Position numbers and translations under genes: made by a program. From the NCBI GenBank assembly GCA_017626405.1, contig JAGAIS010000001.1, positions 294,885-358,884 of the forward strand: a stretch of DNA of 64,000 nucleotides, in the 5' to 3' direction. Shown piece after piece: positions 3,289-59,135 of the stretch. This DNA is from Bacilli bacterium. GTDB taxonomy: Bacteria; Bacillota_I; Bacilli_A; RF39; UBA660. The notes beneath the pieces were generated by a model, which was not told where the DNA came from, did no database searches, and saw only the letters and a program-made list of their open reading frames with translations. How positions within the stretch are numbered: the stretch's first letter is position 1; each line of letters starts with the position of its first letter.

Positions 3289-5718
3289 ATGAAAAAAGTA
3301 ATATGTTTAATAATAGGAGTAATGTTAATAACTATAGGGATATCTGATGTCTCAGCATTAGAAAAATATAAAGTAGTAATTAATGGAACACCAGTAGTAA
3401 CTAATGCAGAAGATAATTCTGTAGTAAGTGATTATTCAAAAATATTAACTTATGAGAATAATGTATTAACAATAAAAGAAAATGCCTATATAACTACAAT
3501 GAATATATATGATACGATAACTATTACTTCAAACGATAAACAAGTATATATTAATCAAATTAATAATTTTAATAATACTAACCCTATGACAATAAAAAAA
3601 TTAAATAGTAAATCTTTTGATAACTTGCCATTTTATATGACAATTAAGGGAAATGTCAGTATACTTAATTCAACTATTAAAGCATCATCCGAGTCTAATG
3701 CTCATGCGGAGATTTATGTTTCATCAAGCGAACTTAATATAATTAATTCAACGATCGATTTAAAGGGTAACTCAGCTAAAGTAAATAGTTCCAAAAACTT
3801 AAATATTAATAATTCTATAATTAATGTTACTGGAGGGCCTAATCTTAGTTCAAATCGTATTGATTCGTTTTCTGGAAACGTTACTATACGAGAATCAAAA
3901 ATTAATACTGACCACGGAGATATTGAAGCAAGGAACATTATAATTACTGATTCTGATGTAAAAACTAGATATATTCAAAGTTTAGATAGCGATATATATA
4001 TAGAAAAATCTGATATTTTTGCCGATTATGTAATTCAGGCTCCTTGTAATATAAGTATTATTGATTCTAAAGTAGTCGCATTAGAGAGTAGTATATTTTC
4101 TGGAAAAATAGTAACAACGAAAAATGGTACATTGTTAATTCAAGATTCTGAAATAACAATTGATGAATACATAGATGGTGGAGGGAATGTAATTATTAAG
4201 GGGTCGACTATTAAAAGATCATTAAATCCATCACCAAATTCGTTTTCTGTTAGTAATAGTGCTTTAACAAATAATAATTATGGTAGCGGTGAGCGAAATA
4301 TGAGAATTGAGGACTCTGATATATACATATTATCTCATTTAAGTGTTGCTGGTAATCTAGATATATTAAATTCAAAAGTTAGAGTTACTTCTGAAGGATT
4401 TGTTGGAGCATCTTATGGCTCTAATATTAGTGTTAATGGTAATCTAAATATGACTAATTCAACAGTAATAACTGACTCATATATATCTGCAAGTAATGAT
4501 TTAAATGTTAAAGGTTCTGATATTACTATTAATGGAATAAATTCTACCTATGCTCAATTAATAGCATCCAAAGATGCGACAATTGATAATTCAGAAATTA
4601 CAATGTATGATGCCGGTCAATATACTTATGTAAGTGCTAGTGCCAATATGAGTATTAATAAATCGACAATTAATATAAAAGCTTCCGAAGATAAAACAAA
4701 AAATGGAAGTGGTTATATTAGAAGTTCTGGAGAATTTAAAATAGAAGATTCTATATATAATAGTGAAATAAAAGGTGGTTCACATAATTCATCTATTTTA
4801 ATAATTAAGGATTCTCAAATTAAAACTAATGGGTATTTCTCAACTAGAAAAGCCGAAATCGAAAATTCAATATTGAGATTAAATAGAAAAGATGAAGAGG
4901 ATTGCTATTTTGAAATAAGTGCTGATAATCCTTCTACATTAACAAATTCTATTCTAAGTGTTGTAGGTGTATTTAGAACAAAGGGTGAACTTAGTTTGAA
5001 AGATTCATACCTTTATACTAAGAATAGTGGCAAGTCAAATTGGTATGGTAGTGAAACATTCTCTCCGCTAGTTGTAAATGGTGATTTAAACATTGATAAT
5101 AGTAGGGTAATAGCAGAATCAATTAATAATCTTCCTGCAGTATTAGTTAAGGGGAAAATAGTATTAAGTGAAGGTTCATTTAAAGATAATAAGAAGCATG
5201 TCTTAGAAGTAGAAAAGAAAACTGTTACGACAGACAATTTCTTATATAATCCAGATTCAATAAGCAATTTTGGAAATTCTACATTTGTCAGCGAAAATGA
5301 TGAAGTATTAACAGCAGTTTTAAATGGAAATATTAGTACATATGCTGAAACTGAAGGATATTATATAGTTACATTTAAAGTAGTAAATGGAACTTGGAGT
5401 GATAAAACTACTGAAGATAAATTAGTAAAAGTATTAATTAATGAAGAGATAACAGATAGTACTTATCCAACAGGTATGATAGAGTCAGAAGGATTTAGTG
5501 AAGGTTCATGGGAAAAAACTGGAGATAATGAATATACATATACATTTATTAAATCTGAAACCAATGAATCAGAAGAAGATAAAAAGACCGATGAAGAAAA
5601 AATAGAAAATCCAAAAACTGGAATAGATGATTATACTATAGTGTCTTCTATATTCATAGTAGTTCTAGCTTGTGTATATTTGTATATAAGAAAAAAAGGA
5701 TATTTTAGAAAGATATAA
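3289..5718 (+). CDS. Secreted beta-helix surface protein with NPKTG wall-anchor motif
   Basis: An 809-residue surface protein of unknown function. It begins with a Sec signal peptide (lysines, hydrophobic core, DVSA cleavage region). The middle ~600 residues are irregular short repeats with recurring N-S-x-I or D-S-x-I steps, the pattern of a right-handed parallel beta-helix. Near the C-terminus is a short module (FKVVNGTWSDKTTEDK) like those in gut Firmicutes adhesins. Then come an acidic Glu/Lys linker, NPKTG, a hydrophobic segment and a positive tail (RKKGYFRKI). This is the layout of a sortase substrate with NPKTG in place of LPXTG. No sortase gene is visible in the window. The gene is monocistronic. 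Adhesion or glycan binding is plausible but not shown. Confidence 0.85.
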   Translation: MKKVICLIIGVMLITIGISDVSALEKYKVVINGTPVVTNAEDNSVVSDYSKILTYENNVLTIKENAYITTMNIYDTITITSNDKQVYINQINNFNNTNPMTIKKLNSKSFDNLPFYMTIKGNVSILNSTIKASSESNAHAEIYVSSSELNIINSTIDLKGNSAKVNSSKNLNINNSIINVTGGPNLSSNRIDSFSGNVTIRESKINTDHGDIEARNIIITDSDVKTRYIQSLDSDIYIEKSDIFADYVIQAPCNISIIDSKVVALESSIFSGKIVTTKNGTLLIQDSEITIDEYIDGGGNVIIKGSTIKRSLNPSPNSFSVSNSALTNNNYGSGERNMRIEDSDIYILSHLSVAGNLDILNSKVRVTSEGFVGASYGSNISVNGNLNMTNSTVITDSYISASNDLNVKGSDITINGINSTYAQLIASKDATIDNSEITMYDAGQYTYVSASANMSINKSTINIKASEDKTKNGSGYIRSSGEFKIEDSIYNSEIKGGSHNSSILIIKDSQIKTNGYFSTRKAEIENSILRLNRKDEEDCYFEISADNPSTLTNSILSVVGVFRTKGELSLKDSYLYTKNSGKSNWYGSETFSPLVVNGDLNIDNSRVIAESINNLPAVLVKGKIVLSEGSFKDNKKHVLEVEKKTVTTDNFLYNPDSISNFGNSTFVSENDEVLTAVLNGNISTYAETEGYYIVTFKVVNGTWSDKTTEDKLVKVLINEEITDSTYPTGMIESEGFSEGSWEKTGDNEYTYTFIKSETNESEEDKKTDEEKIENPKTGIDDYTIVSSIFIVVLACVYLYIRKKGYFRKI

Positions 5719-10442: not shown

Positions 10443-10502
10443 AAATAGAAAGAGTTATAGTAGAATATATTATTGTAATTTAATGAAGTTAGGATGATTT
10501 TT

Positions 10503-11876
10503 ATGATGCGAAATGTAATTTCAGTTATTGATGGGGCAGCCGGTTCTTGTGGCAAAGCTAAAGTAATAGGTGAGATAGCGACGTTAGAGAATATTAATTT
10601 AGGGGCAAGTGTAACAAATTGTATGCCCAATGCAGGTCATACATTTGTAGATAATTCTGGGAAAAAGTATGTATTTCGTAATATTCCAGTTTCTTCAGTA
10701 AATCCTAATACTGAACTTTTTATTGGTCCAGGATCAGCTATTGATATGGAAGTTTTTAAAGACGAAATAAATCGAGTTAATGAGATTGTTGGAGAACGAA
10801 AGATTTATATTCATGAATTAACTCCTCTAATTGAGGAAAGACATAAGAAGTACGAGAGAGAGCATATAAAGAGCGGTTCTACTTTTAAGGGATGTGGAGC
10901 AGTTTCAAAGGAGAAGATAATGCGCGATGAAAAACTAAATTTCTATAGGACTTTTAAGAATGCGATTGTTTGCTCAAATGAAGAATGGTTGGATCGCCTA
11001 TATACTCATTTAGACAATCCTAAAGAATATGTTATGGTCGAAGGTTCTCAAGGTTGTGATCTCGATTTAAATCATAGTGGAAATTATCCTTATGTTACGA
11101 GTAGAAATGTATCTACTACACAGTTACTTGCCGATTCGGGAATCTCAGCAGAGAGATTGTTACAAACTATATTAGTAATTAGACCTTTTCCAATTAGAAT
11201 TAGCAATATAACTAATTCTGGTAAGTATATATATACGGGGGCTTATGGAAGTGGAGAAGAACTAGCATGGACTCAAGTTAATTTAGCTAGCATGTATGGA
11301 AGTTATCCTTTTAAAGGAGATGTCGATTTATACTCATCTAATATGGCGCGCGATATTGTTTCTAGACTTATTTCTGAGTGTCCACAAGTATATCTAAAAC
11401 AGATATTTAAAGATGATTGGGATTCTATAAAGGTAAATGATATTACTCTTTTGAATGCATTGGAAATAGAGAGATTAGTTCATAAATCACGAGGGGAAAG
11501 GGAGTATCAAACCGAATTAATTGATTTACCAATGCTTGATGCAGATTTACCTTTAAATACAATTATCGATCAATCTGAACAGACAACAGTTACTAAGATG
11601 GAGAGAAGAATATTTGATTTAGATATAAGCAAGTTAAAGAATAATTGTCGTATAAATACTCCTTCTAGTTTATATCTTAATTTTTTTGAACATTTAGGTT
11701 ATGAATATAAAGGGGCAAGTGGATTGTTTGAAGAGTTTTATTTTAATAGATATATTCGAGAGTATTTAGATTGGTTGGAAACTGTTACTGGAGTCTATGT
11801 ATCTGCGTTAGGTACAGGAGAAGTAAATGGTTGTAGAATAGTAAAGGAAAGAATATTGAAAGATATAATTAGGTAA
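10503..11876 (+). CDS. Divergent adenylosuccinate synthetase (PurA/PurZ-like)
   Basis: A protein of about 457 residues recognisable as the adenylosuccinate synthetase family. It has a P-loop equivalent GSCGKAK near the N-terminus, NAGHT (the catalytic His loop), VEGSQGCDLDLNH (family EGAQG..LD.DHG), FPIR, and TTVTKMERRIFD matching the family VTGRxRR aspartate loop. Canonical PurA has GDEGKGK. Here the Asp that acts as catalytic base aligns with Ser, a change I associate with phage PurZ enzymes that act on dGMP. The reaction would be (d)GMP or IMP plus Asp plus a nucleotide; the substrate is uncertain. Start chosen at ATG 10503 (ATG 10506 also possible) because TTAGG abuts the earlier ATG at 10494. 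No other purine gene is nearby. Confidence 0.85.
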   Translation: MMRNVISVIDGAAGSCGKAKVIGEIATLENINLGASVTNCMPNAGHTFVDNSGKKYVFRNIPVSSVNPNTELFIGPGSAIDMEVFKDEINRVNEIVGERKIYIHELTPLIEERHKKYEREHIKSGSTFKGCGAVSKEKIMRDEKLNFYRTFKNAIVCSNEEWLDRLYTHLDNPKEYVMVEGSQGCDLDLNHSGNYPYVTSRNVSTTQLLADSGISAERLLQTILVIRPFPIRISNITNSGKYIYTGAYGSGEELAWTQVNLASMYGSYPFKGDVDLYSSNMARDIVSRLISECPQVYLKQIFKDDWDSIKVNDITLLNALEIERLVHKSRGEREYQTELIDLPMLDADLPLNTIIDQSEQTTVTKMERRIFDLDISKLKNNCRINTPSSLYLNFFEHLGYEYKGASGLFEEFYFNRYIREYLDWLETVTGVYVSALGTGEVNGCRIVKERILKDIIR

Positions 11877-12709: not shown

Positions 12710-13471
12710 ATGAACAAATTAGAAATATTAAAAAAAGTAGATATTTTATATGCTATGTGGAAAAAGGGAAGTCTTGGAGGCGAATTTATGCCCGAAGATG
12801 AAAACCCTAATCTAGAGCCATCATCAGTAGAAAATTATTTATATTTTACTTTGCCAATGGCATTAAACTATCAGAGAAATTCGTATACTTTATGGGAGAA
12901 TGCCAATAGAACATATAATGATGATGAAACCAGATTTGTTTTTGATCCAAAAGAATGTTTAAAGAGAAGTTTTGATGAAGTTCAAAGTGCTCTAACTAAG
13001 TATAAGGTTGCTTTGCAGAAGCAAAAACAAACGGAAATATGGTTGACTCTTTGCAATACTTTTGTCGAACTATTTAATGGTGATATTAGAAAACTTTTTG
13101 ATATTTGCGGTAATGATGTTGATAAGATCAGAGATTTTATTCAAAATAAAAATAAGAAAAAATTCCCATATCTATCAGGAACTAAATTATGTAATTATTG
13201 GCTATATGTAATATGGCAATATACGGAAGTGGAATATATTAATATTGAAAATTTGACGGTAGCTCCTGATACACATGTTATTAAATCTACACATAGATTG
13301 GGACTTATAAGCGATGAAGAACTTGATAGTTCTAATGTTCAAAACATCGTAATAGAAAGATGGAATGAATTATTTAGGGGAACTAAGTATAAACCAATAG
13401 ATATTCATACGGCGTTATGGTTATGGAGTAGAAATGGGTTCATCGAATTAGATGAAAGTATTTTAGATTAG
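12710..13471 (+). CDS. HhH-GPD DNA glycosylase-like protein
   Basis: A 253-residue protein. Its C-terminal half contains YLSGTKLCNYWL followed by APDTHVIKSTHRLGLI. These resemble the helix-hairpin-helix (LPGVGRKTANVVL) and the VDTHV...RLGL segment of endonuclease III. The residues aligning with the catalytic Lys (Lys159) and Asp (Asp187) are kept; the spacing is about 10 residues longer than in endonuclease III. No four-cysteine iron-sulfur motif is seen at the C-terminus. The first ~120 residues are helical and unfamiliar. A base-excision or nucleoside-processing role is plausible. It is in an operon with the methyltransferase. The call rests on motif resemblance. Confidence 0.65.
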   Translation: MNKLEILKKVDILYAMWKKGSLGGEFMPEDENPNLEPSSVENYLYFTLPMALNYQRNSYTLWENANRTYNDDETRFVFDPKECLKRSFDEVQSALTKYKVALQKQKQTEIWLTLCNTFVELFNGDIRKLFDICGNDVDKIRDFIQNKNKKKFPYLSGTKLCNYWLYVIWQYTEVEYINIENLTVAPDTHVIKSTHRLGLISDEELDSSNVQNIVIERWNELFRGTKYKPIDIHTALWLWSRNGFIELDESILD

Positions 13472-57974: not shown

Positions 57975-58001
57975 AAAAACATCTCTATGATGTTTTTTTT
58001 G
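57973..58001 (+). terminator. Bidirectional terminator between convergent genes
   Basis: AAAAAAACATC (57973-57983) pairs with GATGTTTTTTT (57989-57999), with A and T tracts. It also contains the end of the dGTPase-like gene. Confidence 0.88.
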
Positions 58002-59106
58002 TTTTCTCAAATTCACTTATGAAGAATTCATCAGTCATTCCTGAAATATAGTCGATTACTATCCTTTCATTTGAATTGTTGGCTTTGTAATCATCATTCA
58101 TTTCATCCATGTATTGTTTAAATAGGGAATCTTTAATAGTCTTAGATTTTAAACATTTCAAATAGTATTTAAAAAGGTCGTTAAACATCTTTCTGATTAA
58201 GTCTAATTCATTTTTGGAATTTGCTAAACTGTAAATGTGCTTGTAATTAAAACTTTTAAGATCGCGAATAGCTTTATATACATTGGGAGACATCTCTAAG
58301 TGATTTTTGCCAATTGAGTTTTCTATTATATCTTCCGTTATCGTCGATACAATATCGCGATTATTGTTTCCAAGTATCTCTTGAATGCTCTTTGGAATTT
58401 CTGATATATCAAATACTCCAAGTCTAACAGCATCTTCAATATCCCTTCCAAGATAACCGATGATGTCGCTTATTCTTACAACACATCCCTCAAGAGTCAT
58501 TGGAACTAGTTTTTTAACATAACTTGAGTCTTTATAACATTTATTATAGTCATTTAAAAAATCTTCTACTGTCTTTTTTTGTGGGTAATAGTCCTTTTGA
58601 ACAAATTCACCATTGTGACAAAGAATTCCATCTAAAGTTTGAACACATAGATTTTTTCCTTCTCCGTTATTTTCTAAAATCATTAATTCCCTTACGGATT
58701 GTACATTGTGAAAAAAGTTGCCTTCGCCATTCTTATTAGAAATATCATTTAATATTGCTTCACCTACATGGCCGAATGGAACATGACCAATATCATGTCC
58801 CAAAGCAATAGCTTCAGTTAGATCTTCATTTAAAGAAAGCGCACGAGATATTGTCCTCGCTATTTTACTTACCAATTGAACATGAATAATACGCTTAGAT
58901 ATATGATCATTTAGAGAATTTGAGAATACTTGTGTCTTATCGATATATCTCGTATAAGATAAACTATGAATTATGCGATCTGTATCTCTGAAGTAATTTG
59001 GTCGTAAGTCCTTTTGAATATCTCCATTTAATCTTATAGCATCCTTATCATAAGTTGCATATTTAGATAGGTATTTTTCATGTTTTAACATATTAACTTT
59101 TTTCAT
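57985..59106 (-). CDS. dGTPase-like HD-domain protein
   Basis: A 373-residue HD protein of the deoxyguanosinetriphosphate triphosphohydrolase group. RDTDRIIHSLSYTRYIDKTQVF, in outline the family N-terminal motif R.....I..S...R...TQV, is followed by HISKRIIHVQ (first His), GHDIGHVPFGH (HD pair) and a later Asp (CVVRISDIIGYL). The family removes triphosphate from dNTPs. Start chosen at ATG 59106 (AAGGTGATT upstream); the frame extends nine codons further without a site. It is convergent with the preceding membrane protein. Confidence 0.92.
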   Translation of the reverse strand: MKKVNMLKHEKYLSKYATYDKDAIRLNGDIQKDLRPNYFRDTDRIIHSLSYTRYIDKTQVFSNSLNDHISKRIIHVQLVSKIARTISRALSLNEDLTEAIALGHDIGHVPFGHVGEAILNDISNKNGEGNFFHNVQSVRELMILENNGEGKNLCVQTLDGILCHNGEFVQKDYYPQKKTVEDFLNDYNKCYKDSSYVKKLVPMTLEGCVVRISDIIGYLGRDIEDAVRLGVFDISEIPKSIQEILGNNNRDIVSTITEDIIENSIGKNHLEMSPNVYKAIRDLKSFNYKHIYSLANSKNELDLIRKMFNDLFKYYLKCLKSKTIKDSLFKQYMDEMNDDYKANNSNERIVIDYISGMTDEFFISEFEKTKKTS

Positions 59107-59124
59107 AATAATCACCTTAGAGAT

Positions 59125-59130
59125 ATTATA
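59125..59130 (-). promoter_or_regulatory. -10 element of the dGTPase-like gene
   Basis: TATAAT on the minus strand about 19 bases before the ATG; no clear -35. Confidence 0.5.
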
Positions 59131-59135
59131 CATTA

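Follow-up and report, generated by a model that had tools for sequence, protein, structure and literature searches.

Some tiny-genome gut bacteria have on their chromosomes a homologue, apparently active, of the phage enzyme initiating synthesis of the altered DNA base 2-aminoadenine, with the usual finishing partner apparently missing. The protein studied is encoded in a 64,000-nucleotide stretch of DNA from a Bacilli bacterium (the whole stretch analysed is called the window) and is confirmed as an adenylosuccinate-synthetase homologue with Ser in the place of the catalytic Asp. We regard a PurZ-type (d)GMP:aspartate ligase, working within a mobile nucleotide-modification (perhaps defence) module, as its likeliest identity, with a probable novel effect on the pool of purine nucleotides. 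The longest ORF (+ strand, 10494-11876) has a product of 460 aa, and homologues together with an upstream AGGA favour a Met codon at 10506 or 10503 over the ORF start at 10494. The features of the gene are:

10503..11876, + strand: CDS of a PurZ-like (succino-purine nucleotide synthetase-like) protein, from the ORF, profiles, trees and AF2 model
10542..10562, + strand: P-loop GSCGKAK (G17-K23), its Ser codon (10545-10547) at the place of PurA catalytic Asp13
11286..11558, + strand: helical insertion of about 90 residues (residues ~265-355), from the alignment and AF2 model
11583..11609, + strand: aspartate-binding loop TTVTKMERR (residues 364-372) of PurZ type, from the alignment

The window protein matches PF00709 (93.9 bits in a profile search) and PHROG 1211, and its top score, 184.9 bits with the NCBIfam PurZ model, exceeds that with every PurA model. 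Since this lies under the 300-bit curated cut-off of the model (NF038379), we file the protein as PurZ-like, a sister lineage within the PurZ clade, and not as PurZ in the strict sense. The first-pass annotation had claimed both motifs and an Asp-to-Ser change, and all three are present: the catalytic Asp of the PurA test motif GDEGKGK is gone, Ser18 aligns with the PurA Asp and with Ser23 of S-2L PurZ, and no nearby Asp substitutes for it. Ser18 is kept in 32 of 32 aligned family members, among which the other main catalytic groups vary little or not at all. With dN/dS among family members at 0.06-0.24, purifying selection for function acts on this PurZ-like family.

The dGMP pocket described for S-2L PurZ (PMC8342488) reads as largely conserved in the window protein: the alignment gives identity at G17, S18, N46, A47, G128, S129, T130, R144, Q186, T202 and R235, and further at TTVT, R371, N396 and F397. 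Among the differences, Ile236 replaces S-2L Val241 (the 2'-OH sensor), Val replaces Cys204, and Glu replaces Gln308, a position that is Gln in other family members. The AlphaFold2 model (pLDDT 86, pTM 0.88) has archaeal PurA and phage PurZ as its best structural matches and places a confident helical insertion (residues ~265-355) directly before the aspartate loop, an element missing from phage PurZ and from a second chromosomal family described below. Ile236 and this 90-aa insertion could alter specificity.

Two trees, of 46 and 60 rows, agree in topology. In both, the lineage's chromosomal copies group together as a single clade, with support of 100/97 and 100/98, within the PurZ group, and archaeal PurA falls outside the Ser-type group; canonical PurA, that of sister genomes included, forms a separate clade (100/100), and the Ser-type proteins of rhizobial plasmids are separate deep branches. 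In the 60-row tree the chromosomal clade joins a Bacillus phage PurZ and a viral contig (92/86). This position inside the PurZ clade bears out the earlier call of a PurZ-like rather than PurA-like protein, while the suggestion that it is closer to archaeal forms holds in part, fold and sequence lying near archaeal PurA and PurZ jointly. The tree position of the window gene had suggested its horizontal transfer, a reading dropped because a GPD control gene gave the same pattern. No close viral relatives were found with the window protein or alignment A1 as query; a broader alignment recovered 26 viral PurZ contigs, and viral contigs of up to 408 kb encode a PurZ with a GSCGKG loop. Three of the PurZ contigs are of jumbo-phage size (L190, L192 and L199, at 371, 395 and 408 kb), and a DUF6378 gene lies directly downstream of PurZ in L190, as it does in L191, a contig of 100 kb.

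A scan of genome contigs gave 54 loci, all in uncultured Bacilli-type MAGs, mostly from the gut and including those named Ca. Onthousia and Ca. Ventrenecus. A survey of 385 genomes of the order found a match in 37 and an intact copy of the window family in 26, PurZ-like genes occurring in about 10% of the order; clearly broken copies are seen in G006 and G033, and most copies are intact. Additional variants occur in G223 and G243, the latter with Asp again. At L134:9484-10593 a chromosomal protein of the PurZ lineage has regained the Asp (GDCGKGK), and its aspartate loop is degenerate. Three genomes (G087, G304 and G380) have members of a second family, about 360 aa in length, each time adjoining a Nudix gene (3/3):

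L136:9601-11131; L137:9459-10984; L135:2363-3883: second chromosomal PurZ-like family with adjacent Nudix hydrolase

The window genome (G000) spans 1.245 Mb in 11 contigs and is 88.7% complete. In line with the first-pass annotation, which had described a chromosomal copy surrounded by no phage genes, none of the ORFs in the window's first 24 kb was seen to be a phage gene. The annotation had also advised looking for a normal purA elsewhere; none was found, the window ORF being the sole PF00709 gene in the genome at that completeness. The earlier interpretation nevertheless survives, because this sole gene does not cluster with ordinary PurA.

PurB, the usual next enzyme, was found neither in the window genome (by TIGR00928 or PF00206) nor, by two models, in any of 32 genomes carrying a PurZ-like gene (26 are at least 90% complete); the same PurB/Lyase_1 searches were positive in 14 of 14 control genomes. 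Lyase_1 is absent from 31 of the 32, and the lone match (G380, 262 bits) was rejected as PurB, being far under the PurB cut-off and, on inspection of its sequence, reading as argininosuccinate lyase (ArgH). Because PurB is missing in 32 genomes, the route from dGMP through dSMP to dZMP cannot be finished via known enzymes. An unrelated lyase may have been missed in this lineage, since PurB is likewise undetected in three sister genomes whose PurA is canonical. The canonical PurA genes of these sister genomes lie at L011:595-1953, L012:655-1926 and L013:1459-2739. No Z gene cluster of MazZ, DatZ or DpoZ type was recognised around the window gene.

A Ppx/GppA-like gene (TIGR03706 full-length at 48.6 bits; PF02541) lies immediately upstream on the same strand, at 14-24 bp, in 28 of about 58 loci, a count in which one genome appears twice. 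A close Ppx-like orthologue is present in 21 of 37 genomes with PurZ-like genes vs 15 of 348 others (p=2e-15, relatedness ignored), and unlinked cases alone give 6 with and 16 without vs 15 with and 333 without (p=7e-4, relatedness again ignored). When loci of different genomes are compared, several pairs show DNA similarity in the 2.3 kb Ppx-PurZ unit alone, in unrelated surroundings; since similarity stops at its edges, this unit moves, or is kept, as a unit. Beyond the Ppx-like gene, neighbours are mostly variable and many are housekeeping genes. The window locus has no adjacent Ppx-like gene, and G000 holds only a 28% paralogue about 90 kb off. In L042, repeats sit at gene-unit boundaries around the Ppx-PurZ unit (66-99, 2620-2684, 4351-4391 and 5495-5617), an arrangement that looks like a cassette array.

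A gene of the UDG superfamily is found no more than 8 kb from the PurZ-like or Ppx-like gene in 8 of 36 genomes holding both, where about 0.5 would be expected; the gene was chosen after being seen near some loci, and two of the 8 genomes belong to the same genus. In the window itself, 12710-13471 encodes an HhH-GPD-like, glycosylase-type protein (weak PF00730, E 0.014), and such a gene adjoins the PurZ-like gene in the window, G005, G006 and L055. As a partner it was rejected, its recurrence being mostly among same-genus loci.

As to defence, no PADLOC model recognises the PurZ-like protein, which has no match to a described defence system, and PADLOC run on 10 neighbours gave no match. Defence genes are neighbours at single loci (AbiA in L045, a YhcG-like nuclease in L048 and a restriction-enzyme-like gene in one), and defence families among neighbours number 132 vs 13 in the control, a comparison biased by a neighbour list hand-trimmed towards non-housekeeping genes and for that reason given no statistical weight. 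Judged by its start, the protein encoded at window 57988-59133 seems to be the one that gave a PADLOC dGTPase match when the controls were scanned. A literature search found no paper on purine auxotrophy of RF39-like bacteria or on adenylosuccinate synthetases in defence islands.

What might a PurZ-type enzyme do in a host with no detected PurB? We infer aspartate ligation to a guanine nucleotide from homology and pocket conservation. By analogy with PurZ enzymology, the predicted enzyme would transfer a phosphoryl group from ATP or GTP to O6 of a guanine nucleotide (dGMP being the likeliest) and join aspartate to C6. The resulting N6-succino-2-amino-(d)AMP would remain succinylated since there is no PurB to split it. 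The enzyme may belong to a loose accessory module, passed between genomes as one piece, together with a Ppx/GppA-like or Nudix phosphohydrolase, which would perhaps feed in the nucleoside monophosphate, and a UDG-type glycosylase often encoded close by. Such a module would deplete guanine deoxynucleotides or produce an unusual purine nucleotide, phages being its most plausible target. Our leading, if tentative, reading is a phage-derived, host-maintained PurZ-type ligase in a loose, mobile accessory nucleotide module, plausibly anti-phage. Its weakest step is the mobile nucleotide-modification or defence role, for which the evidence is the patchy distribution, the conservation of the gene pair as a unit, the partner genes and the defence genes beside single loci. 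A more specific proposal, that the phage Z-DNA enzyme was taken over with the lyase step dropped, and that a succinylated guanine-derived nucleotide together with Ppx-like/Nudix and UDG proteins makes up a mobile defence or signalling system, is a doubtful one.

Other explanations fare less well. It is unlikely that these bacteria make a specialised nucleotide (a signal, or something antibiotic-like or cofactor-like) on which the aspartyl/succinyl group is kept on purpose while the Ppx-like or Nudix enzyme trims phosphates; the missing PurB, the linked phosphohydrolase genes and an insertion beside the Asp loop that may change the amino acid or the product would all suit this, but the loci hold no dedicated biosynthetic cluster and, Ppx-like gene apart, their neighbours are mostly variable, many of them housekeeping. 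Less probable still is that the protein stands in for the cell's adenylosuccinate synthetase, with IMP as its substrate: it is the sole PurA-like gene of its genome and the chromosomal G243 variant carries Asp again, whereas the invariant Ser, the grouping with PurZ and not PurA, the want of a PurB for AMP release, and an occurrence in about 10% of the order, therefore not that of a housekeeping gene, all argue against it. We give little credence to the idea that an unknown lyase lets the host produce 2-aminoadenine (Z) nucleotides for use in its DNA or RNA. A conserved PurZ active site, a Nudix partner of the second family that might provide dGMP in the manner of phage MazZ, and glycosylase genes close by speak for it, but PurB is absent and no DatZ- or MazZ-type gene was recognised alongside. 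A functionless remnant of a Z-phage, compatible with phage ancestry and the broken copies in G006 and G033, was already disfavoured and is very improbable given the low dN/dS, the active site invariant in 32 members and the intact state of most copies.

Returning to a host-maintained PurZ-type ligase, how does it compare with known systems? A published survey (PMC12884076) had Ser-type PurZ from phages and four archaeal sequences but none from bacteria, in a prokaryote sample of at most two sequences per phylum, and our literature search, with subscription journals mostly outside its coverage, turned up no description of a PurZ encoded on a bacterial chromosome. A chromosomal PurZ lineage kept by selection in bacteria without PurB would show that O6-phosphoryl/aspartate chemistry is used beyond Z-DNA, and the Ppx-like and PurZ-like proteins make a concrete, testable enzyme pair in uncultured gut bacteria.

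Canonical bacterial PurA has its superfamily and chemistry in common with the window protein but differs in having Asp instead of Ser, another loop before the aspartate site and a separate clade. The short archaeal PurA (Pyrococcus horikoshii, 2D7U/5K7X) shares the short architecture and is the closest in structure (TM 0.84-0.86 by target length), yet retains Asp and lies outside the Ser-type clade. The ADSS-like proteins of rhizobial plasmids (for example S. medicae pMl5 and R. leguminosarum pRLN3) share an Asp-to-Ser change on a bacterial replicon, but have a GSEGK loop and either dCTP deaminase-like or DUF7002 partners or a fused kinase-like domain. Ser-type GSEGK proteins of this kind occur on rhizobial and Methylobacterium replicons (L175:4986-7048; L176:4476-6775; L181:2434-4733; L182:3455-5754), with a dCTP deaminase-like gene or a kinase-like fusion followed by DUF7002, and possibly represent another nucleotide-modification or defence system.

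Among viruses, the closest relatives in the trees are the PurZ proteins of Bacillus phage vB_BpsS-140 (about 35% identity) and viral contig L216, which lack the insertion and lie in a phage genome context. With phage PurZ of phiVC8 and S-2L (N6-succino-2-amino-2'-deoxyadenylate synthase; PDB 6FM1, 6TNH, 7ODX) the window protein shares the Ser, the TTVT loop, most dGMP pocket residues, the clade and the fold (TM 0.81-0.83 by target length); unlike these, it is chromosomal and has the helical insertion of about 90 aa. The partners differ too, chromosomal PurZ-like loci having Ppx-like or Nudix genes, in hosts without PurB, where Z-phages have MazZ, DatZ and DpoZ, although the second family with its Nudix gene resembles the dGTP-to-dGMP supply by MazZ in those phages.
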